Below, one piece after another: positions 31,098 to 40,808 of a stretch of 64,000 bases of DNA. Positions within the stretch are counted from its first letter, which is position 1; each line of letters opens with the position of its first letter. A program made the translations under genes and the position numbers. This DNA is from Streptococcus sp. 2342 (GTDB lineage Bacteria; Bacillota; Bacilli; Lactobacillales; Streptococcaceae). The notes beneath the pieces were generated by a model. The model made no database searches. It had not been told where the DNA came from and worked only from the letters and a program-made list of their open reading frames with translations. The DNA lies in assembly GCF_013276795.1 (NCBI RefSeq), contig NZ_VMLR01000003.1:124001-188000 (forward strand). The letters run 5' to 3'.

Positions 31098-31769
31098 CTA
31101 TTTAAAGAAATTGACATTGTGGAGATGAGGGATTTTTCGAATTTCTTCGATGGCATCATCACAGTTGCGACTGTCAACTTCGATAATCATAATGGCTTTT
31201 TCACCAGCTTTTTCACGAGTAACGTTCATCTGGGCGATATTGATACCATAGCGAGAAAGGGCCTCTGTTACGAGGGCAATCATTCCTGGAATATCTTGAT
31301 GAACAATGATGATAGTCGGTGTATTCATATTAAGAGAGACGGCAAAGCCATTGAGTTCGGTTACCTGAATATTTCCTCCACCGATAGAAATACCAGTCAC
31401 ACTGATGGTCTTGTGCGCATTTTTAACGGTAATTTTAGTGGTGTTGGGGTGAGGAGCATTGCTGTCTTTCTGAATTGTCCAGACAATCTTGATACCACGT
31501 TTGTGGGCAATCTCCAGACTATTTGGGATTTCAGGATCATCTGTATCCATGCCTAAAATACCTGCAACAAGGGCTAGGTCTGTCCCGTGGCCACGATAGG
31601 TCTTGGCAAATGAGTTAAATAGTTGGAATTCGACTTCTGTCGGAGTATCATCAAAAATGGAAGAGACAATCTTCCCAATACGAACAGCACCAGCTGTATG
31701 GCTACTAGATGGGCCAATCATAACTGGTCCGATGATATCAAAGACAGATTGAAAACGAAGTGATTTCAT
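31098..31769 (-). CDS. sdaAB: L-serine dehydratase, iron-sulfur, beta subunit
   Basis: The 223-residue product has the SDH beta domain with IGPVMIGPSSSHTAGAVRIG near the N-terminus. A C-terminal ACT domain (about 148-220, NTPTIIIVHQDIPGMIALVTEAL) probably senses an amino acid. AAGGGG precedes the ATG. An extended -10 (TGATATAAT; hexamer 31800-31805, minus strand) lies about 30 bases upstream. Confidence 0.95.
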   Translation of the reverse strand: MKSLRFQSVFDIIGPVMIGPSSSHTAGAVRIGKIVSSIFDDTPTEVEFQLFNSFAKTYRGHGTDLALVAGILGMDTDDPEIPNSLEIAHKRGIKIVWTIQKDSNAPHPNTTKITVKNAHKTISVTGISIGGGNIQVTELNGFAVSLNMNTPTIIIVHQDIPGMIALVTEALSRYGINIAQMNVTREKAGEKAIMIIEVDSRNCDDAIEEIRKIPHLHNVNFFK

Positions 31770-31925
31770 CAGTTTCCCCTTATAAAAATTCTTATCTCTA
31801 TTATATCAAAGAATAAAGGTCTTGACTTTAATTGTGGATGAAAACCTTTCTAATACCTTAAATAGCATAAAAATAGTATCTTTTATGACAAAAAACACCT
31901 TATTTAGGGAAATAAAAAATAATTT

Positions 31926-31979
31926 TGTAATATTTCTACATAAAAGTGTCAAGAAACAGTAATATTTAAAGGGTATGAT
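31926..31979 (+). promoter_or_regulatory. Promoter of the LysM gene with WalR/VicR-like half sites
   Basis: TGTAAT (31926) and TGTCAA-N5-AGTAAT (31947-31963) approximate the TGTNAN-N5-TGTNAN motif bound by WalR/VicR, each with a mismatch. TATGAT (31974-31979) is the likely -10. Pneumococcal LysM genes of this type are, from memory, in the WalRK regulon. Confidence 0.5.
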
Positions 31980-32010
31980 AGAAGTATAGAAAGAAGGAGA
32001 ATTTTCAAAT

Positions 32011-32631
32011 ATGAAATCAACAACTAAAAAGATTAAAACAACTCTTGCAGGAGTAGCTGCCTTGTTTGCAGTATTTGCTCCATCATTTGTATCTGCTCAA
32101 GAATCATCAACTTACACAGTTAAAGAAGGTGATACACTTTCAGAAATCGCTGAAACTCACAACACAACAGTTGAAAAATTGGCAGAAAACAACCACATTG
32201 ATAACATTCATTTGATTTATGTTGGTCAAGAGTTGGTTATCGATGGTCCTGTAGCGCCAGCAGCACCAGCTTCAACGACTTATGAAGCTCCAGCTGCCCA
32301 AGATGAGGCTGTTTCAGCCACCGTGGCAGAAACTACAGAGGTAGAGGAGGAAACTCCAGTAGCAAGCGAAACAGTAGCAGAAGAAATTGTTGCTTCAACT
32401 GTAAGCGGATCTGAAGCAGAAGCCAAAGAATGGATCGCTCAGAAAGAATCAGGCGGTAGCTACACAGCTACAAACGGACGTTATATCGGACGTTACCAAT
32501 TGACAGATTCATACTTGAACGGTGACTACTCAGCTGAAAACCAAGAACGTGTAGCAGATGCCTATGTTGCAGGACGTTACGGTTCATGGACAGCCGCTAA
32601 AAACTTCTGGCTTAACAATGGCTGGTATTAA
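32011..32631 (+). CDS. Secreted LysM protein with lysozyme-like C-terminus
   Basis: The 206-residue product has a signal peptide ending SFVSAQ (about residue 30) and one LysM domain (about 34-78, TYTVKEGDTLSEIAETHN). A Glu/Val/Ala-rich linker follows, then a C-terminal part (about 137-206) with WIAQKESGGSY and GRYIGRYQL. The Glu in KESGG and this pattern resemble short lytic transglycosylase-like domains. It should bind and perhaps cleave peptidoglycan outside the cell. It matches SP_0107 by position. Enzymatic activity is inference. Confidence 0.88.
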   Translation: MKSTTKKIKTTLAGVAALFAVFAPSFVSAQESSTYTVKEGDTLSEIAETHNTTVEKLAENNHIDNIHLIYVGQELVIDGPVAPAAPASTTYEAPAAQDEAVSATVAETTEVEEETPVASETVAEEIVASTVSGSEAEAKEWIAQKESGGSYTATNGRYIGRYQLTDSYLNGDYSAENQERVADAYVAGRYGSWTAAKNFWLNNGWY

Positions 32632-32654
32632 GAACTGACGAACAGAATAATATG

Positions 32655-32684
32655 AAAAGGTCGAGGAAATCCCTCGACTTTTTT
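32655..32684. terminator. Bidirectional terminator between LysM and Rgg genes
   Basis: AAAAGGTCGAGG and CCTCGACTTTTTT form a strong stem with an AAATC loop and T-runs on both strands. Confidence 0.92.
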
Positions 32685-33546
32685 ATATTTCCTTCGGTTG
32701 AGAATAGATCTCTACTTCTTTTTTGAGATGAGACAGCATAGAAGTTTCCTCGGTCAGCTCCAGAAGTGAGAAACCTTTTTGGATAAGTCTAGCGTCATCC
32801 CTACAAATCCCGATACGGACATAGCAGATAGCAAGTCTATCGTAGTGCTTCTTTTTCTTGGCATCCTCTAGTAAAGTATAGCAGATTTGTTGACACATGT
32901 TTTTGTCTTGATGGTATAAGTAAATGGTGGACAGATTGAGTAGGATTGCCATTCGTAAGTCATATAAATGTTGGTAGTTTTTATAGACTTCCAAGCGTTG
33001 CAAGATTTTTCCAGTAATGAGATGGAGGTGATCAATGGGAAAGCTGAAAAGGATGGTATTGAGGATTTTTAGGTCATTTTCATACCATGTATCTTGTTTT
33101 TCAATTTTTTCCCAAAGTTTTTTGACAGTCTGTTTCACTTGGTCTGACAGTTGCTCTGTACCATGTTGACGGATATGAATGACAATTTCCAGCATATCCC
33201 TTATTTCTTCTATAGGCAGGTCGTGGTGGGTCTTGAGATAGTCTTGGCATGTTTCAAAAAAATGAACTAGACTATTACTACCAATGATGGAAGTCATATT
33301 GAGATAAGTTTGCATGATTTCTGTTCGTTGGCTCGGTTGATAGAGATGGCAGATGTAGTCAAACTCTTCAAAACTCATATTGATTTGCCGGAGAAGAAAT
33401 TCCATGTTTTCATATTTGGGAGTTGCTTTGCCACTTTCAATCTTTGATAGGCTAGTTCTTGAAAGGACATCTCCGCAGACCTCTTCTTGAGTCAAGCCTT
33501 TTGACTCACGTATTTCTTTATAGATATTTCCGAAATCATAACGCAT
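32683..33546 (-). CDS. Rgg/MutR-family peptide-responsive regulator (RtgR-like)
   Basis: The 287-residue product has an N-terminal helix-turn-helix (about 8-62, EIRESKGLTQEEVCGDVLSRTSLSKIESG) and a long helical TPR-like domain (about 85-280). This is the Rgg layout of cytoplasmic receptors for imported peptides. It is divergent from the 28-residue peptide gene at 33730, and the gap carries a 15-bp direct repeat. The W-x-W end of that peptide recalls, from memory, the RtgR/RtgS pair of pneumococcus. AAAGGAGA precedes the ATG. Specific pairing is inference. Confidence 0.85.
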   Translation of the reverse strand: MRYDFGNIYKEIRESKGLTQEEVCGDVLSRTSLSKIESGKATPKYENMEFLLRQINMSFEEFDYICHLYQPSQRTEIMQTYLNMTSIIGSNSLVHFFETCQDYLKTHHDLPIEEIRDMLEIVIHIRQHGTEQLSDQVKQTVKKLWEKIEKQDTWYENDLKILNTILFSFPIDHLHLITGKILQRLEVYKNYQHLYDLRMAILLNLSTIYLYHQDKNMCQQICYTLLEDAKKKKHYDRLAICYVRIGICRDDARLIQKGFSLLELTEETSMLSHLKKEVEIYSQPKEI

Positions 33547-33561
33547 AATTTTCTCCTTTTC

Positions 33562-33696
33562 GTGAAAAAAGTTAACAAATAATAAAATCCAATTAAAAAT
33601 ATTGTATCATAGTAACAGAAATAGTAAAAAAGAAAACTAAAATAGTGTGTGAAAAAAGTTAACTAATTTTAAAATAGAGTAAAGAAGAGGTATACT
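33562..33696. promoter_or_regulatory. Rgg-peptide intergenic control region with 15-bp direct repeat
   Basis: GTGAAAAAAGTTAAC occurs at 33562-33576, just before the regulator gene, and again at 33649-33663. The second copy ends 27 bases ahead of the TATACT -10 (33691-33696) of the peptide gene. The bases after both copies are also alike (AAATAATAAAAT and TAATTTTAAAAT). The region is very AT-rich. One site per gene suggests autoregulation plus peptide activation. Confidence 0.6.
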
Positions 33697-33729
33697 ATAG
33701 ATACGAAATACAGATAGGAGGGAAAGAGT

Positions 33730-33816
33730 ATGAATAAAAAAGTTTTTCGTTTTTTAGTTATTCTTGCTTTCTTATTCAGCATTGCTACGGTTTTCCCATG
33801 GAACTGGCCGATATAA
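33730..33816 (+). CDS. Short hydrophobic peptide pheromone candidate with W-x-W C-terminus
   Basis: This short ORF encodes 28 residues: a lysine-containing N-terminus (MNKKVFRF), a hydrophobic core and the end VFPWNWPI. AGGAGGG lies eight bases before the ATG, and TATACT lies at 33691-33696. Its size, charge pattern and position beside a divergent Rgg gene match pheromone precursors that are secreted, trimmed and re-imported by the Ami/Opp permease. The W-N-W motif resembles the W-x-W of RtgS (from memory). It is not a lone random ORF: it has a promoter, a ribosome site and a repeat shared with the regulator. The mature form is unknown. Confidence 0.72.
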   Translation: MNKKVFRFLVILAFLFSIATVFPWNWPI

Positions 33817-33955
33817 TGCGCTAGTTGTAAAAATGAAAGGAAGGTGAGTCCAATGGATAATTTTTAAATAATTTATAATAGGGGAACTAAAATTATATTT
33901 TTAAATTAGTTTTATGGCAATTGAATAGAATAACCGATAGACTGGAGGTAGAAAG

Positions 33956-34513
33956 ATGTTTAATAGATTGAGTAAAAGTTTAAGTTTGTTGATGATTATT
34001 ACGATGTTGAGCGCAGTGTCAATACCTAGCTTTGTGGCTTATGCGGATGACAATTCATCACCTAGTATTCAATTGACTTCCGAAGAAAGAGAAATAGCAT
34101 CTGAATTTCGTTATTTATTTGAAATTGCTAGTTACTTGGATGAAAATGGTAATCGAGTGATTGATATGGATGCTTTACAACAGACTTATGGTAAAGAACA
34201 AGCTCCTTATATAGCGGAGGGAATTCGAATATTATCGGATCCAAAGGAAACAGATATAGTTCTGCAGAATATGAAGTCTGATTTTTATTCTAGGAGTTGG
34301 ATGAGTTGTATGCTGGACTCCACTATAGACTTTTTGGGAATAAATTTATTAACAGATATATTCGGTGGAGGTCTGGGAGGGCTATCAGGACTTATTCAAA
34401 AGAAAGCGTGGCCAAAGATTGCAAAATTGGTATTAAAATCTACCGTAAAAACTTCTGGTGTGGCAATTGCAGCTACTTTGTCATGGTATAGTTTAAAATG
34501 TTTAAACCAATAA
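33956..34513 (+). CDS. Secreted bacteriocin-like protein of unknown family
   Basis: The 185-residue product begins with a Sec signal peptide (cleavage likely after AYA, residue 30). A mildly acidic segment (31-110) follows, then a basic, hydrophobic C-terminal part with Cys118 and Cys182 at its borders and a glycine run FGGGLGGLSGL (136-146). The two cysteines could form a disulfide. This pro-region plus amphipathic, Gly-rich, cationic end resembles pore-forming bacteriocins, though I do not recognise the family. It is not lactococcin 972-like. GGAGG precedes the ATG. TATAAT at 33874-33879 could start it separately. The overlapping small membrane protein supports a toxin-immunity reading. Confidence 0.6.
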   Translation: MFNRLSKSLSLLMIITMLSAVSIPSFVAYADDNSSPSIQLTSEEREIASEFRYLFEIASYLDENGNRVIDMDALQQTYGKEQAPYIAEGIRILSDPKETDIVLQNMKSDFYSRSWMSCMLDSTIDFLGINLLTDIFGGGLGGLSGLIQKKAWPKIAKLVLKSTVKTSGVAIAATLSWYSLKCLNQ

Positions 34514-34662
34514 AATATACAGTAACGGTTTTCACTATCTTAGCCTATATTATTTGGTTTTGGATGAGGATGAAATTAACTGATTTAATTGGACTTTTTA
34601 TTGTAACACTGATGATTGAAAATTTTATTTTTTATTTTTTCAATGATAAAAAGAAAAAATAG
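34498..34662 (+). CDS. Small two-helix membrane protein, possible immunity protein
   Basis: A 54-residue ORF starts at an ATG inside the last codons of the secreted protein gene, overlapping its stop by 16 bases, and ends FNDKKKK. Two hydrophobic helices (about residues 8-23 and 28-48) are followed by a lysine tail. Size, topology and translational coupling are typical of bacteriocin immunity proteins. There is no strong ribosome site, which fits coupling. Function is inferred only from this arrangement. Confidence 0.6.
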   Translation: MFKPIKYTVTVFTILAYIIWFWMRMKLTDLIGLFIVTLMIENFIFYFFNDKKKK

Positions 34663-34691
34663 GAATTTCTCTTGTTTACTAAAGTTAATAA

Positions 34692-34775
34692 TCTAAATTT
34701 ACCTCATCTCAATTAGCTAAATTTAATGTAGCTGTTGTTGTAGCAGGAGTAGCATTAAATGCTATCTCTTGTTAG
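34692..34775 (+). pseudogene. Possible remnant of a second bacteriocin-like gene
   Basis: After an in-frame stop, a fragment reads SKFTSSQLAKFNVAVVVAGVA and ends NAISC before TAG. Its hydrophobic, Cys-ending pattern weakly recalls the VKTSGVAIAATLSWYSLKC end of the 33956-34513 product. No start is present. The resemblance is low and may be chance. Confidence 0.3.
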
Positions 34776-34809
34776 GGGACTTAGTTCGCATATAGTAGGA
34801 AAAGTATTT

Positions 34810-35039
34810 TATAGTAGATTGAATTAGGAAGAGACAACGTAATTAAGATATTTGAGTCTGGGACAAAAGTCTAACCTTAAATATAAAAAGCGAACAAAAA
34901 CAAGTTATATGGCACTCATAATTCTATTTTGTTCGTTTTTTTGTCTAATCTATCGATTTTAAAAACTTATAATAAAGAATTCGTAAAATCAAAATCTTTT
35001 TGTCCCAGACTCGTCTTGTTCTAACCTCAATATACTATA
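34810..35039. repeat. Nested inverted-repeat element, MITE-like, about 230 bp
   Basis: Three pairs of inverted arms are nested. The outer TATAGTAGATTGA (34810-34822) pairs with TCAATATACTATA (35027-35039). GAGTCTGGGACAAAA (34854-34868) pairs with TTTTGTCCCAGACTC (34998-35012). The inner AAGCGAACAAAA pairs with TTTTGTTCGTTT (about 34886-34942). No ORF of note lies inside. This is the form of a non-autonomous mobile element or a large structured RNA; it differs from BOX. Confidence 0.6.
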
Positions 35040-35098
35040 ATATAAGTCGTCTCTACCCTATGTTGATTAGATTAAGTCGTGAATCAGGAGGTTAAGTG

Positions 35099-35686
35099 AT
35101 GAACTACAATGTAAAATATCTCTTATCAGGAATATTTATTATAGTCTTTATAGGTTTTCTAGTCTGGATGCGTTATTTTAATCAGAAGAAGGAAGAAGCG
35201 CATTCGGATGTGTCTTTTGAAGCGAGGTTAGATAGTGAGGTCAAGACCTTATATAAACAACTAGGATTGGGTGAGGAACCTAACTATTTCTTAGCTTATC
35301 GCTACTTACACCCTTGGTTTAATCTAGCGATTTTACCACCAACAGTTGAAATTTTCTTAACTAAAATAGCGCTGGTGATGGTAACTCCAGATGAACTACT
35401 GATAAGAAATATTGGGAATGGGATGACTTTCACAAGTGAGCATCATCGTGATTTGCGACAAGGACTTATCCGCATTCCAAAATCAGAGATAAAAGAATTT
35501 GAGATTCGCAACTGGAAAAGAGTTTTTATATTTGGCGATTTTTTGACAATTAAAACAAGCCAACATAGCTATTATTTGCAGGTTAGAGATGATGGACTTC
35601 AAAAAGGAAGTCTTTCTACCAAACACTTCTCCGACTTGAAACGACAAGATTTTCTCGGATTATTGACAGATAAACGGACATTTTGA
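35099..35686 (+). CDS. Membrane-anchored protein of unknown function
   Basis: The 195-residue product has one N-terminal membrane helix (about 7-26) and a soluble remainder with several predicted strands (FLTKIALVMVTPDELLIRNIG, RVFIFGDFLTIKTSQHSYYLQV). That layout resembles a PH-like fold, which is a guess. ATG 35099 is chosen because AGGAGG lies seven bases upstream; a GTG at 35096 is also in frame. It lies between the bacteriocin-like genes and the exporter genes. I do not recognise the family. Confidence 0.65.
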   Translation: MNYNVKYLLSGIFIIVFIGFLVWMRYFNQKKEEAHSDVSFEARLDSEVKTLYKQLGLGEEPNYFLAYRYLHPWFNLAILPPTVEIFLTKIALVMVTPDELLIRNIGNGMTFTSEHHRDLRQGLIRIPKSEIKEFEIRNWKRVFIFGDFLTIKTSQHSYYLQVRDDGLQKGSLSTKHFSDLKRQDFLGLLTDKRTF

Positions 35687-35727
35687 TAGACGATTGCTCA
35701 AAAAACTAACCTCTAAACATTCAAAAA

Positions 35728-35785
35728 CCACACAGTGTTTTCAGCCTTGAACACAATTAAGCTGAGAGAATCACTGTGTGGCTTT
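35728..35785 (+). terminator. Long hairpin between the membrane protein and exporter genes
   Basis: CCACACAGTG pairs perfectly with CACTGTGTGG and is followed by CTTT. An inner CAGCCTT/AAGCTG stem lies in the loop. It may act as a partial terminator before the exporter genes. Confidence 0.55.
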
Positions 35786-35835
35786 ATTGGAAAGTTAGTT
35801 TTTCCCAGTTTCGTCTCTTCACGGGAGGTATCTCT

Positions 35836-37944
35836 ATGAAAAAAATCAGTCATCTTTGTATGCTCCTGCTCTTGCTGTGTACTACGTTTTTTGTCTTGAA
35901 TGTAAATGTTACACGAGAAATAGTGCGGATTCAGGAGATGGGCAAGACAACTTATTCATTTGACTTGTACTTGAAAGATGTCACTAAACCGACAGAAACG
36001 ATTCTCCAATTTTTTGAAGAGGTTGCAAGCCAAGACAAGGTCTCTATTATCAAAGTAGATAATGGCGATGAGGTCGTCAAGGCTGGTGTTTTTGATAAGG
36101 AAACCTTCCCCTATCAGGAGTTCGGTCTGACTTCTCTTGATTTTTCAAAGAATGAGAAGGGAGTCTACAGCAACCAGGATCTTCCCAATAATCTAGGAAC
36201 CATTCCCACCTTTTTAAAGGTGAAACTCATTCGACTCCAGACCTTCCAATCCTATATTGAGGATAAATCCCATACTGTAAATGGACGCTACATGATTACC
36301 TCCAGCAAAGAGATAGATCGCGATACCATTCTACAAAAGTGGAGTGATTTTTTCCAGATAGATAAGACGATTTTATTAGAACCCACTTACCGAAGTCAGG
36401 TTGGAGTGCTAAATCAAGAGTTGTTACTATCTATCATTATCTTTATCTTGGCAATCTTGCTTGTGATTTTAATGACAGTTTATCAGCCGATGATGGAGAT
36501 GAAACGAGTGGGGGTTCAAAAGTTACTTGGTTTTCAAAGCAGGGCGATTTTAGCTGGTTTTGTAAAGACTAATTTTTATCTTCTCTTGGGTGGAAGTCTT
36601 GTCATTGACTTGGGACTATTTTTAGTGCTGGACTACAGGCCAAAACTTTTGTTTCCAAGTTTACTCTTATCCCAATTTCTGCTTTTACAGTTGTATTTGT
36701 TCATCAGTTGGCTGACCTACCTGATGATTCAGAAAATGACAGTCAGTTCCATGTTGAAAGGTTTTTCATCTGTCAAACTTGGTCTCATCTTCAATTATGT
36801 GATGAAAATAGGGACAACTATTTTACTGACGGCCTTACTGATTGGGGTGGGGAGAAGTCTAGAACAGCAAAACAAAGAGCTTGCTTATCAGCAACAGTGG
36901 GTAAGTCAAGGTAATTACCTGACCTTAGAAACCTTCAAACTCAATGATAATCTGTGGCAAGAAGAGCTAGCAGGGTCAGGGAAATCTACAGATTATTTCT
37001 ATCGATTTTATCAGGATTTGGTAGAAAAAACGCAGGCGGGCTATGTGCAGAGTAGCAGTCTTCCTGTAAAAAATTTTGTCCAATCAGAACAGATTCAGCA
37101 ATATCAGTTAACAGATACGGTGGATGTTTACTATGCCAATCGCAATTTTCTAAAGAGCAAGGGATTCAAGCTACCAGATACCGGTATTAAAAAAGTTATT
37201 TTGATGCCAGCAAGTACGAAAGGTGAAGAAGATAAAAATCAGCTCTTGGGGAAGTTAATTGCCTTTCATTCGATGAAGTATGAAGAGCAGCAAAAACGAA
37301 CGATAGAGGAGATGGATGTCGAGATTGCCTATTATGAAGGAGATTGGTCATTTTTCCCATATAGTGATAAGCGAAAGGAAAATCTCTCCAATCCAATTAT
37401 TAGCTTGGTCAATGATTCTGATATGATGTGGGATGAGAAAGCCTCCCTGTCAACAACTGGCTTAAATAATCCGATTAAAATTGAAAATACGGTTCAACAT
37501 CAAAAAGAGATTACAGAGTTAGTTGAGAAATTGTCAGATGGAAATTATTTAAAATTTTCATCTATTCAAGCCATTCAACAAGAGAAAGTGGATTCTTATC
37601 GGGATTCTGTTCGTAATTTTAACGTTCTTTTTGCCTTATTTGCTCTTCTCAGTATGATTGTCTCCTACTTTTTACTCGTTACTACTTTCTTGTTGAAGCG
37701 CAGGGATATCATTACCAAGAAGTTTATGGGGTGGAAACTGGTCGATCGCTACCGTCCTCTCCTCGTTCTGCTCTTGCTGGGCTATAGTCTCCCTCTTCTA
37801 GTATTGATTTTCTTTGCCCATGCGTTCTTGCCACTTCTGCTGTTTGCAGGCTTTACATGTCTGGATATACTATTTGTGTTAGCCTTGGCTTCTAGGATGG
37901 AGAAAAGAAGTCTAGTAGAATTATTGAAAGGGGGCATCTTATGA
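35836..37944 (+). CDS. Bacteriocin-associated integral membrane protein (lactococcin 972-type exporter permease)
   Basis: The 702-residue product has an N-terminal membrane helix, an extracytoplasmic domain (about 30-190), three to four helices (about 192-330), a second large outer domain and a last group of helices near 590-690. It matches the family named bacteriocin-associated integral membrane protein (DUF1430), a MacB/FtsX-like permease that accompanies lactococcin 972-group bacteriocins. GGGAGG lies seven bases before ATG 35836. Its stop overlaps the ATPase start by four bases. No lactococcin 972-like gene is present in the window. Confidence 0.85.
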   Translation: MKKISHLCMLLLLLCTTFFVLNVNVTREIVRIQEMGKTTYSFDLYLKDVTKPTETILQFFEEVASQDKVSIIKVDNGDEVVKAGVFDKETFPYQEFGLTSLDFSKNEKGVYSNQDLPNNLGTIPTFLKVKLIRLQTFQSYIEDKSHTVNGRYMITSSKEIDRDTILQKWSDFFQIDKTILLEPTYRSQVGVLNQELLLSIIIFILAILLVILMTVYQPMMEMKRVGVQKLLGFQSRAILAGFVKTNFYLLLGGSLVIDLGLFLVLDYRPKLLFPSLLLSQFLLLQLYLFISWLTYLMIQKMTVSSMLKGFSSVKLGLIFNYVMKIGTTILLTALLIGVGRSLEQQNKELAYQQQWVSQGNYLTLETFKLNDNLWQEELAGSGKSTDYFYRFYQDLVEKTQAGYVQSSSLPVKNFVQSEQIQQYQLTDTVDVYYANRNFLKSKGFKLPDTGIKKVILMPASTKGEEDKNQLLGKLIAFHSMKYEEQQKRTIEEMDVEIAYYEGDWSFFPYSDKRKENLSNPIISLVNDSDMMWDEKASLSTTGLNNPIKIENTVQHQKEITELVEKLSDGNYLKFSSIQAIQQEKVDSYRDSVRNFNVLFALFALLSMIVSYFLLVTTFLLKRRDIITKKFMGWKLVDRYRPLLVLLLLGYSLPLLVLIFFAHAFLPLLLFAGFTCLDILFVLALASRMEKRSLVELLKGGIL

Positions 37945-38582
37945 TTGAGTTGGAAAATATTACCAAAGTCATTGGGGGAAAAGTGATTTTGGATAACTTG
38001 TCTCTCAGGATTGATCAGGGGGATTTGGTAGCCATTGTTGGTAAGAGTGGTAGTGGTAAGTCGACCTTGTTAAATTTATTAGGTTTGATAGATGGTGATT
38101 ATAGCGGACGGTATGAGATTTTTGGTCAGACAAATCTAGCGGTCAATTCTGCTAAGTCGCAAACAATAATCCGTGAACATATCTCTTATCTGTTTCAAAA
38201 TTTTGCCCTGATTGATGATGAAACGGTCGAGTACAATCTTATGCTGGCACTGAAATATGTGAAATTGTCCAAGAAAGACAAGCTCAAAAAGGTGGAAGAG
38301 ATTTTAGAGAGAGTAGGTTTGTCAGCTACTTTGCATCAAAAGGTCTCCGAGTTGTCTGGTGGCGAACAACAACGAATTGCAGTTGCTAGAGCCATCTTAA
38401 AACCCAGCCAGCTGATTTTAGCCGATGAACCAACAGGTTCGCTGGACCCTGAAAATAGAGATTTGGTCTTGAAGTTTCTCTTAGAGATGAATCGAGAGGG
38501 GAAAACAGTCATTATTGTGACCCACGATGCTTATGTAGCCCAACAATGTCATCGTATCATTGAATTGGGCGAGGGAAAATGA
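37941..38582 (+). CDS. ABC transporter ATPase, putative bacteriocin export (lactococcin 972 group)
   Basis: The 213-residue ATPase has Walker A VGKSGSGKST, the Q-loop in YLFQNFAL, the signature LSGGEQQR and Walker B LILADEPTG with a following H-loop VTHDAYVA. It belongs to the MacB-like group paired with DUF1430 permeases. Start and previous stop share ATGA, indicating coupling. It probably drives export or self-protection rather than import. Confidence 0.92.
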   Translation: MIELENITKVIGGKVILDNLSLRIDQGDLVAIVGKSGSGKSTLLNLLGLIDGDYSGRYEIFGQTNLAVNSAKSQTIIREHISYLFQNFALIDDETVEYNLMLALKYVKLSKKDKLKKVEEILERVGLSATLHQKVSELSGGEQQRIAVARAILKPSQLILADEPTGSLDPENRDLVLKFLLEMNREGKTVIIVTHDAYVAQQCHRIIELGEGK

Positions 38583-38647
38583 GTTCGTTCAGCTCCTTTT
38601 GACTGACTGAATACTCATATTTTCCAAAGAGAAATAGCATAAATACG

Positions 38648-38689
38648 CCTAGAAATGACATTTTTATGTAGTATTTCTAGGTTTTTTTG
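38648..38689 (+). terminator. Terminator of the exporter genes
   Basis: CCTAGAAAT pairs with ATTTCTAGG, with an inner ACAT/ATGT, and is followed by eight T or near-T bases. Confidence 0.9.
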
Positions 38690-38719
38690 TTTTAAACTGA
38701 AAAAATTTTCAATTTAGGC

Positions 38720-38748
38720 TTGACAAACGATGAGGATAGTAGTATTAT
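38720..38748 (+). promoter_or_regulatory. Promoter of abpA-argGH
   Basis: TTGACA (38720-38725) and TATTAT (38743-38748) are separated by 17 bases. In pneumococcus these genes are under ArgR/AhrC control; I could not see a convincing ARG box. Confidence 0.75.
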
Positions 38749-38788
38749 TTATACAACTAAAAAGAATAAACATAAAGGAGGCTTTGTT

Positions 38789-39595
38789 ATGAATAAGATG
38801 AAGAAGGTGTTGATGACGATGTTTGGTTTAGTGATGCTCCCCCTACTATTTGCTTGTAGTAACAATCAATCGGCTGGAATTGAAGCTATCAAGTCTAAAG
38901 GAAAATTGGTTGTAGCCCTCAATCCGGATTTTGCTCCATTTGAATACCAAAAAGTGGTTGATGGGAAAAATCAGATTGTGGGTTCAGATATCGAATTAGC
39001 TAAGGCTATCGCAACAGAACTAGGTGTCGAATTGGAACTATCTCCTATGAGTTTTGATAATGTATTGGCTAGTGTTCAATCAGGAAAAGCCGACCTTGCC
39101 ATATCTGGTGTTTCTAAGACAGACGAACGGAGCAAGGTGTTTGACTTTTCAATTCCCTACTATACTGCAAAAAATAAGCTCATTGTCAAAAAATCTGACT
39201 TGGCCACTTATCAGTCTGTAAATGACTTGGCGCAGAAAAAGGTCGGAGTGCAGAAAGGTTCGATTCAAGAGACGATGGCGAAAGACCTGCTACAAAATTC
39301 TTCCCTCGTATCTCTGCCTAAAAATGGGAATTTAATCACAGATTTAAAATCAGGGCAAGTGGATGCAGTTATCTTTGAAGAACCTGTTGCCAAGGGATTT
39401 GTGGAAAATAATCCTGATTTAGCAATTGCTGAAATTGAGTTTAATCAAGAAAAGGATGATTCCTACGCGGTCGCCATGAAAAAAGATAGCAAGGAATTGA
39501 AAGAGGCAGTCGATAAAACCATTCAAAAATTGAAGGAGTCTGGGGAATTAGACAAACTCATTGAGGATGCATTTAAAGCATCCATTGAAAAATAG
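38789..39595 (+). CDS. abpA: Arginine-type amino acid ABC transporter binding lipoprotein
   Basis: The 268-residue product has a lipoprotein signal (MLPLLFAC, Cys23) and a family 3 solute-binding domain ([58 protein letters not shown]). Its place directly before argG-argH matches AbpA of S. pneumoniae (SPD_0109, from memory), an arginine-binding protein regulated with argGH. AAAGGAGG precedes ATG 38789. No permease or ATPase gene is adjacent, so it must use a transporter encoded elsewhere. Confidence 0.85.
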
Positions 39596-39611
39596 AAAGA
39601 AGGAAAAGAAC

Positions 39612-40808
39612 ATGAGTAAAGAAAAAGTAATTTTGGCCTATTCTGGCGGTTTAGACACATCAGTTGCTATTACCTGGTTGAAGAAAGACTATGATGTTGT
39701 TGCAGTTTGTATGGATGTGGGTGAAGGGAAAGACTTAGATTTCATCCATGATAAGGCTCTTCAGGTTGGGGCAGTCGAATCTTATGTCATTGATGTTAAG
39801 GACGAATTTGCTACAGATTATGTGCTAGTGGCTCTTCAGTCACATGCCTACTATGAACAAAAGTATCCCTTGGTATCTGCCTTGAGCCGCCCTCTCATTT
39901 CTAAAAAATTGGTTGAAATAGCGCATCAGACAGGAGCGACTACAATTGCTCATGGTTGTACAGGCAAGGGGAATGACCAAGTACGTTTTGAAGTATCGAT
40001 TGCAGCCTTGGATCCCAATTTAAAAGTGATTGCACCAGTTCGTGAATGGAAATGGTCTCGGGAGGAAGAAATTCATTATGCCAAGGAAAATGGGGTGCCT
40101 GTTCCTGCTGACCTTGACAATCCCTACTCTGTCGACCAAAATCTTTGGGGACGTGCCAATGAGTGTGGTATTTTGGAAAATCCATGGAATCAGGCTCCAG
40201 AAGAAGCCTTTGGCATCACAACTTCTCCAGAGCAAGCTCCAGATATGCCAGAATACATTGATATTGAGTTTAGTGAAGGTGTCCCTGTTTCCCTCAATGG
40301 AGAAGTGTTAAAATTGGCAGATTTGATTCAAAAACTCAATGAAATAGCTGGAAAACATGGGGTCGGACGGATTGATCACGTGGAAAATCGTTTGGTTGGG
40401 ATTAAATCAAGAGAAATCTATGAGTGTCCAGGCGCAGTGGCCTTGCTGACAGCTCATAAGGAAATTGAGGACTTGACGCTTGTGAGAGAAGTGGCTCATT
40501 TTAAACCAATCATAGAAAATGAATTATCAAATCTCATTTATAATGCTTTGTGGTTTAGTCCGGCTACGCAAGCCTTGATTGCTTATATTAAAGAGACCCA
40601 AAAAGTTGTCAATGGAACTGCAAAAGTCAAACTGTATAAGGGGAGCGCTCAGGTCGTGGCTCGGAAATCACCAAATTCTCTTTACGATGAAAATTTGGCG
40701 ACTTATACTAGTGCAGATACCTTTGACCAAGATGCGGCTGTTGGCTTTATTAAGTTGTGGGGACTTCCAACCAAGGTTCATTCTGAGGTTCAAAAAAGCG
40801 CCAAATAG
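39612..40808 (+). CDS. argG: Argininosuccinate synthase
   Basis: The 398-residue enzyme joins citrulline and aspartate using ATP. The N-terminal pyrophosphatase loop [12 protein letters not shown], the [13 protein letters not shown] block and [15 protein letters not shown] are diagnostic. ATG 39612 with AAGAAGGAAAAG upstream gives the standard length. It lies 16 bases after abpA and 28 before argH. With argH alone it completes only the citrulline-to-arginine half of the pathway. Confidence 0.97.

Follow-up and report, generated by a model that had tools for sequence, protein, structure and literature searches.

An RtgR-type regulator, a Trp-x-Trp peptide gene and paired promoter boxes before an EntV-like gene in Streptococcus sp. 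2342: a candidate quorum switch with exchangeable output

Introduction

What does a streptococcal Rgg regulator control when the short peptide encoded opposite to it ends like the pneumococcal pheromone RtgS, and the genes behind that peptide are not those of the rtg locus? We examined this question for a 64,000-nucleotide stretch of Streptococcus sp. 2342 (contig NZ_VMLR01000003.1, positions 124,001 to 188,000 of the forward strand; hereafter the window, in whose numbering all coordinates are given), where an rgg gene (32683..33546, - strand) stands divergent from a 28-codon open reading frame (ORF; 33730..33816, + strand), followed by a gene for a protein resembling EntV and streptococcin A-M57. 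The Rgg/WxW group of regulators was proposed in PMC7018657, where its membership and outputs were reserved for future study; that paper names, besides RtgR/RtgS, the systems Rgg1518/SHP1518 (rio84/rio83) and SSA_2251. No description of the present locus, of a link between Rgg and EntV, or of the element described below behind the pheromone gene was found in the literature searched, a coverage that mostly excludes subscription journals.

We consider it probable that an RtgR/RtgS-type regulator, a pheromone ORF and a set of promoter boxes have been placed before the EntV-like gene and act as its quorum switch.

Results

The regulator

The 287-amino-acid (aa) Rgg contains an HTH_3 domain (38.9 bits) and an Rgg_C domain (28.5 bits, over the Pfam cut-off of 27) in profile scans, and the structural neighbours of its model (predicted local distance difference test, pLDDT, 67; template modelling scores up to 0.50) included ComR, Rgg144, Rgg2/3, PlcR and PrgX, the top neighbour being an uncharacterised Listeria regulator. 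It is 84% identical to the Rgg of locus L049, whereas the other Rgg-like matches in its own genome reach at most 27%. We take L049 to be an rtg locus because its peptide ends in AIIFPWGWPI, which is exactly the RtgS1 type A 10-mer (PMC13361665), and because of its arginine-gene neighbourhood, rtgR being reported next to a partly disrupted arginine cluster (PMC7018657). L049 contains a shortened argH frame of 319 aa, both of the boxes described below, a 743-aa ATP-binding cassette (ABC) protein with a C39 peptidase domain in its first 300 residues, and a peptide whose leader, by eye, is of the double-glycine type.

When the best 8 candidates per genome were scored, an Rgg match at E ≤1e-15 was present in at least 144 of the 284 genomes of the genus; numbers given for paralogs are lower bounds. 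Comparison was based upon 66 distinct rgg loci (at least 60% identity, match starting near residue 1, identical stretches removed); fragmentary matches in genomes G210 (70%) and G158 (86%) stand outside this set. Of the loci, 61 are found at the LysM side (site A), and the other five adjoin argH or argG (site B). In a tree with 64 rows (two loci with an incomplete Rgg match were left out; 28 of the 59 inner branches are weak) the site-B regulators are scattered among those of site A, requiring at least 3 changes, and the five site-B copies do not form one separate group. The 84% identity to the Rgg of an rtg locus and the interleaving of the two sites on the tree therefore place the window Rgg, by sequence, in the RtgR family.

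The peptide ORF

The ORF at 33730..33816 (MNKKVFRFLVILAFLFSIATVFPWNWPI) ends in ATVFPWNWPI. The original prediction had described it as a 28-residue ORF ending in VFPWNWPI, with a ribosome site, a TATACT promoter and a divergent rgg, and all of these are present, the ribosome site as AGGAGGG and the TATACT hexamer at 33691-33696. The likeness to RtgS that it had proposed was borne out as well: 7 of the 10 C-terminal residues are shared with AIIFPWGWPI (PMC13361665), the very 10-mer that accompanies the 84% identical Rgg in L049. The peptide is hydrophobic with a Lys-rich N-terminus, it has Trp-x-Trp near the C-terminus, and it contains neither Asp nor Glu. An ORF with FPWxW was found in 21 of the 66 rgg loci (hereafter carriers), in 15 distinct alleles. 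Across the 11 distinct alleles of 28 codons the per-site nonsynonymous difference (pN) was 0.092 and the synonymous difference (pS) 0.283, a ratio of about 0.33; both Trp codons are invariant, and among the final eight codons the one between them (N/K/R/Q/G) varies most. Because of this ratio, and of the recurrence in 21 of 66 loci, we regard the peptide ORF as more than a chance frame, judging by sequence.

In a clade at 66-67% Rgg identity the peptide ends in FPWGW(L/F)L in four loci; the fifth carrier of this distant clade, L161 (68% Rgg), ends in FPWRWPM and has lost promoter and ribosome site. In L161/L061 box 2 joins the pheromone frame at a common AAAAAAGTT, an apparent deletion that took promoter and ribosome site with it. 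Genome-wide, the pattern FPWxW(P/L)(I/M) occurred in 22 of 284 genomes, at these rgg loci in 17 and elsewhere in 5, compared with 4 for the reversed pattern. The five matches elsewhere were set aside as chance, having no Rgg match in the 3 kb examined and no FPWxW(P/L)(I/M)-stop end; one of them, L224, is a 12-codon frame ending in FPWGWPIG. Beside paralogous Rggs (37-53% identity), a divergent ORF whose last 12 residues contain at least two Trp was found at 31 of 62 loci; random windows gave 61 of 1156, and the other strand 0 of 62. The SHP1518 C-terminus is among these ORFs, as are relatives of the peptide of SSA_2251, which PMC7018657 names.

Two boxes facing the peptide gene

The 15-bp sequence GTGAAAAAAGTTAAC occurs exactly twice in the window, both times on the + strand, as box 1 (33562..33576) and box 2 (33649..33663). 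The 1,986,227-base assembly has no further exact copy, which makes a chance origin of the pair very unlikely; with one mismatch it occurs at 4 places in the assembly, and the backwards pattern at 1. Each box starts a 38-nt direct repeat (79% identity) and ends in the palindrome GTTAAC. TATCAT, a possible -10 of a first forward promoter (33605..33610, + strand), begins 43 nt past the start of box 1 and is kept across loci, and TATACT, the predicted -10 of the pheromone promoter (33691..33696, + strand), begins 42 nt past the start of box 2. Of the 21 carriers, 17 have a box 2 with at most one mismatch, and in each of these a -10-like hexamer stands 42 or 43 nt from where the box starts. The same layout of boxes and -10 hexamers is repeated in the rtg-locus relative L226/L049.

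The 15-bp sites had been described as one before each of the two divergent genes. This arrangement, one operator per gene, was rejected on account of the common orientation of the copies and their common spacing, 42-43 nt, to -10-like hexamers on the peptide-gene side; for the same two reasons we read the boxes as tandem promoters toward the peptide gene. Such a layout fits what is reported for rtgS1, a pair of almost identical promoters that have an inverted repeat in common (PMC7018657). Box 1 is at the same time close to rgg, 15 nt upstream of its start codon and within the predicted rgg leader, and rgg autoregulation is therefore possible; the rgg promoter itself (TTTACT, 16 nt, TACAAT preceded by TG; 33601..33628, - strand) was predicted by consensus scan only. 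Since TATCAT overlaps the rgg -10 on the opposite strand, its conservation is ambiguous.

Rgg3 is a repressor relieved by peptide. Tpr regulators are described likewise (PMC7595303). Here, too, the peptide could be a pheromone while the Rgg is mainly a repressor that it relieves, box 1 in the rgg 5' region then serving autoregulation. The position of box 1 between the predicted rgg promoter and the start codon speaks for this, as does its exact retention in 63 of the 66 loci, even where peptide and box 2 are missing; however, box 2 lies just upstream of the predicted -35 region, where an activator would be expected, and RtgR, to which the window Rgg is tied by the 84% identical rtg-locus protein, is reported as required for activation (PMC7018657). 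We regard the repressor reading as rather unlikely and retain an activating switch.

The peptide ORF and its predicted promoter tend to occur together

Box 2 with at most one mismatch was found in 17 of 21 carriers and in 4 of 45 non-carriers (Fisher p = 1e-8, a value that ignores kinship, related strains not being independent); with at most two mismatches the counts were 17 of 21 and 14 of 45. Among the four non-carriers with box 2, an ABC set follows directly behind the intact box in L165, L143 and L145, and the peptide ORF is cut short in L150. As the non-carriers mostly lack box 2 too, peptide and proximal promoter appear to tend to come and go together. The stretch from box 2 through promoter and pheromone ORF to the start of the micro-ORF described below (33645..33857, + strand) is found in carriers with other cargo and is absent from a non-carrier: 33547-33857 is common to the carriers L147 and L041, whose cargo differs, at 97-99%, and in carrier L137 homology runs up to 33844, whereas in the non-carrier L135 it is confined to 33550-33644, stopping just before box 2. 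L035 (site A) and L137 have identical Rgg proteins with different peptide and cargo. On the Rgg tree the peptide state requires at least 14 changes, 4 of them forced by starred branches, against an average of 17.9 for shuffled labels, and peptide state thus seems weakly tied to Rgg kinship. For loci that keep rgg and box 1 without a peptide ORF a listening-only state is plausible, though a different type of pheromone might have escaped the search; since there are many such loci, this state is directly testable. In L006, L007, L011-L014 and others without a WxW peptide, its place is taken by a 37-aa hydrophobic ORF (MFKNKELFRVVMIFVIG...) containing no Trp.

The output genes

It had been suggested that the output here differs from that of rtg, and this held: an EntV-like protein and a 54-aa hydrophobic protein are encoded next to the peptide gene. 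The EntV-like gene (33956..34513, + strand) specifies 185 aa with a signal-peptide-like N-terminus (by eye) and matches NCBIfam EntV_fam (57.9 bits, E 1e-15); matches to this family at E ≤0.001 occurred in 19 of 284 genomes, 8 of them above the cut-off. A single-sequence search of 5.8 billion proteins returned only two close ones (97% and 88%). A profile search reached proteins named streptococcin A-M57 and, in the PDB, EntV (7roa), although the profile held EntV-family rows and the result is hence not independent. Cys118 and Cys182 are invariant in an alignment of 12 rows. The model of this protein (pLDDT 50) was too poor for structure search. A close plasmid-borne relative was looked for and rejected, as the 6 plasmid records found, from Bacillus and Priestia, had a mere 26-31% identity. 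In genome G280 a 45% Rgg paralog lies beside another EntV-like gene (L095/L207, 36 bits), a second pairing of Rgg and EntV, with its own short hydrophobic ORF that has one Trp and ends in APWLPTELM.

The 54-aa gene (34498..34662, + strand; predicted immunity) overlaps the bacteriocin-like gene by 16 nt and belongs to a block common to L173 and L202; in L202 the frame end differs, giving 65 aa. Between the pheromone and the EntV-like gene (33817-33955) a simple scan found no forward terminator-like site, and no C39 peptidase domain was found in seven scanned proteins of 32011-37944. Further downstream, 34707..34781 (+ strand; SQLAKFNVAVVVAGVALNAISC, stop) matches, at 23 of 25 positions, the C-terminal end of the 190-aa protein that L041 carries as cargo, and we interpret this remnant, from its sequence, as a trace of cargo exchange. 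A gene for a bacteriocin-associated seven-transmembrane (7TM) protein (35836..37944, + strand; TIGR01654, 650 bits) and one for a 213-aa ABC ATPase (37941..38582, + strand) come next, a pair that follows lactococcin-972-type genes in relatives; thereafter are a binding protein and argG. An insertion of about 173 bp occupies 34840-35012 and carries GAGTCTGGGACAAAA close to each of its ends as an inverted repeat; L173 lacks it, without a gap, and it looks like a small non-coding repeat element.

The first gene of at least 50 aa behind the peptide varied among the 21 carriers: it belonged to a lactococcin-972 cluster in 9 (one member scanned, TIGR01653, 88 bits), was of C35/C36 type in 4, EntV-like in 2, a 142-aa gene in 2, a family-less 196-aa gene in 2, the 190-aa gene in 1 and the rtg peptidase-ABC gene in 1. 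Across the 66 distinct loci, by this comparison of sequences, rgg and box 1 stay while the downstream genes are swapped.

Another reading is a dead or decaying hybrid: the bacteriocin slot would be exchangeable, the pheromone ORF a leftover, and the EntV-like gene silent or under its own promoter. This would account for the remnant at 34707-34781, for the joining of the pheromone ORF to box 2 in L161 and its truncation in L150, and for promoter-like sites with 9 of 12 matches at 33833-33861 and 33872-33899. Against it, no damage is seen in the window to the pheromone ORF, the boxes, the -10, the ribosome sites or either cargo ORF, and pN/pS of the peptide is about 0.33. We think such a hybrid improbable, more so than the repressor reading. 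Least of all do we favour the 28-aa product as a small membrane protein or toxin, a very improbable reading to which its hydrophobicity, its Lys-rich N-terminus and the fact that the pheromone role is predicted from sequence lend something, while the published RtgS motif at its end and the excess of Trp-rich divergent ORFs beside paralogous Rggs (31/62 loci vs 61/1156 random windows) oppose it.

Several observations weigh against the quorum switch itself. On the side of the regulator, TIGR01716 (Rgg C-terminus) scored 18.6 bits, under its cut-off of 36.9; kinship to RtgR was measured via the Rgg of L049, not the D39 RtgR sequence; and model confidence is moderate for the Rgg (pLDDT 67) and low for the EntV-like protein (pLDDT 50). 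The EntV_fam (NF058576) score of 57.9 bits falls under the curated cut-off of 130, a single-sequence PDB search with the EntV-like protein found no EntV, and an 18-row alignment keeps Cys118 alone invariant, the EntV-family relative L193 having no second Cys. The identity of the boxes with the published rtgS1 inverted repeat is assumed. Finally, conservation of the peptide among loci that keep rgg, on which the original prediction depended, was found in part: 45 of the 66 loci have no FPWxW ORF, which counts against it; box 2 is mostly gone there too.

An element behind the pheromone gene

Behind the pheromone gene lies an extended ribosome site, GAAAGGAAGGTGAGTCCA, with a micro-ORF (MDNF-stop, ATG at 33853); the whole, 33835..33867 (+ strand), is here termed the post-pheromone element. 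GAAAGGAAGGTGAGTCCAATG stands 18 nt past the pheromone stop codon and leads into the start of the micro-ORF. The 13-mer GGTGAGTCCAATG (at most 2 mismatches, at most 75 nt from the pheromone stop) was found in 28 of 52 Trp-type systems, made up of 15 of the 21 close carriers plus 13 of the 31 paralogs; random windows drawn from these loci gave 1 of 2080. The carriers without it include the rtg locus L049 and the C35/C36 type, and the paralogs without it include the Rgg1518 group. A micro-ORF as short as AUG-NNN-stop was present in 11 of the 13 paralogs, compared with 7.1% for ATGs in AT-rich context (the rows are not independent, three coming from one close group). Against the putative 16S tail GGAUCACCUCCUUUCU, present once in this genome, 20 distinct copies averaged -18.0 kcal/mol, whereas 629 starts of ORFs of at least 150 aa (first ATGs, not curated starts) averaged -8.9; 0.6% of these controls reach the element median and 0 of 629 have the spacer. 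The strong pairing is partly a product of selection, since resemblance to the motif was the criterion by which the copies were chosen.

When whole genomes were searched with a 21-mer based on the RtgR-type copies (2 mismatches), 29 places in 27 of 284 genomes were obtained, and the reversed pattern gave 2. A Trp-type ORF precedes 19 of the places (in one case cut short). Seven have another head, a 294-aa RNPP-like regulator (HTH_3, 51 bits; RNPP_C, 20.7 bits, under its cut-off of 26.5) and a peptide ending in GAYYSPS/G, both within the 3 kb examined; the remaining three (L251, L260, L264) have a broken-looking relative of that peptide and no such regulator in the 3 kb examined. An ORF of at least 45 aa starts within 330 nt downstream at 26 of the 28 places listed, the 29th being L241. 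In L202 (genome G108) the EntV block of the window (96% from 33837 on) stands behind the RNPP-like regulator and a GAYYSPS peptide, with no Rgg match in the 3.5 kb examined; heads and cargos therefore meet at the element. L173 (genome G245) has four element-like copies and several cargo-type genes in one slot.

Conservation of the micro-ORF lies at its ribosome site, not in its peptide: a conserved peptide was rejected, as the second residue varies (D/F/G/V/S/Y). A hairpin over the start codon was rejected too, AGUCC/GGACU (by eye) being kept in some copies but broken in others and 12 folded leaders giving no consistent sequestration, and no known RNA family reached the gathering threshold in 31500-40000. 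Evidence that such a micro-ORF is translated comes from D39. The Ribo-RET small ORF rio97, ATGGACTACGATACTTGTTGA (MDYDTC), which lies between spv_2096 and spv_0106 and is kept in 4 of 6 further serotypes, has a value of 425 in Table 1 of PMC9426450 and is among the six with the most start-codon reads; ten ORFs including rio97 were tagged, and five of the ten gave a strong band. Letter for letter, rio97 is the micro-ORF before the lactococcin-972 genes of L147, L171, L153 and others, and spv_0106 would be streptococcin C. For Rgg1518, the 7-aa rio83 encoded behind the pheromone is translated and was suggested to be a negative regulator, a synthetic peptide being without effect (PMC9426450). A 7-codon ORF without the extended spacer was found in 3 of 4 Rgg1518-like loci (L105, L107, L108).

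Discussion

In the switch that we favour, the 28-aa precursor would be made, exported by a PptAB-type transporter and trimmed; its C-terminal FPWNWPI part would be re-imported through an Ami-type transporter and bound by the Rgg; and the peptide-bound Rgg would raise transcription from the two boxes into the pheromone gene, the micro-ORF and the bacteriocin and immunity genes. The EntV-like product would then act as a bacteriocin, with the 54-aa protein giving immunity. The sequence shows the anatomy, and we infer each of these steps, from translation and processing of the peptide through export, import and binding of Rgg to the boxes, to bacteriocin activity and immunity. The genome holds one EcsB-family frame, 7 SBP_bac_5 places and M50 protease genes as candidates for transport and processing, their use in this pathway being predicted. 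For rtg, RtgS fragments are reported to induce via RtgR, and activation to need PptAB and Ami (PMC7018657).

Stabilising ribosome sites are known on mRNAs. By analogy, we think that ribosomes loading at the micro-ORF would most likely protect or pace the effector mRNA; the main alternatives are that the element is a mere recombination joint or the target of a small RNA. More broadly, and as a tentative proposal that we judge slightly more apt to fail than to hold, the element may represent a new class of cis-acting translation element, with complementarity to nearly the whole 16S 3' tail and an ORF reduced down to AUG-NNN-stop, which would mark the quorum-controlled secreted-bacteriocin operons of streptococci behind two kinds of receptor (Rgg/WxW and RNPP-like), protect or meter the effector mRNA, and form the joint for exchange of heads and cargos.

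The principle of cargo exchange is not new, because pneumococcal bacteriocin clusters that are exchanged next to TprA and Rgg, both of them conserved, have been described before (PMC6120550). The window locus and its relatives supply RtgR-type heads before several unrelated bacteriocin-like genes, including those of the lactococcin-972 type. The regulation of streptococcins A, C and D has been called unclear (PMC11796350). The micro-ORF element offers a sequence handle for quorum-controlled bacteriocins and raises a new question on translation.

Comparison with known systems

The closest known system is RtgR/RtgS of the pneumococcal rtg locus (PMC7018657), with which the window locus shares the regulator family (84% in L049), a divergent Trp-x-Trp peptide without Asp or Glu, the FPW-x-WPI end and a neighbourhood of arg genes; the two predicted promoters with their common box would correspond to the repeat-sharing promoters of rtgS1. 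It differs in lying between LysM and argG, whereas rtg lies beside argH, in having an EntV-like output in place of a peptidase ABC transporter and double-glycine peptides, and in the residue between the two Trp, which is Asn here and Gly in RtgS. Rgg1518/SHP1518 and SSA_2251 also have a Trp-rich pheromone, and in D39 the micro-ORF rio83 likewise follows the pheromone gene; however, Rgg identity is about 44-46% in the relatives examined, the output of Rgg1518 is an ABC transporter operon, and rio83 is without the extended 16S-complementary spacer. Classical SHP pheromones have a conserved Asp/Glu in the mature peptide that the window peptide lacks, and comS runs in the same direction as comR (PMC7018657) whereas the window peptide gene is divergent. 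With EntV and streptococcin A-M57 the output protein shares a similar length, Cys118 and a distant profile match, but it scores 57.9 bits against a cut-off of 130, and enterocin O16 of E. faecalis is reported to be under Fsr, not Rgg. The TprA/Rgg bacteriocin hotspots of pneumococcus (PMC6120550) resemble the present locus in pairing a conserved quorum regulator with exchanged bacteriocin clusters; here the regulator is of the RtgR type, and pheromone, boxes and joint are resolved.

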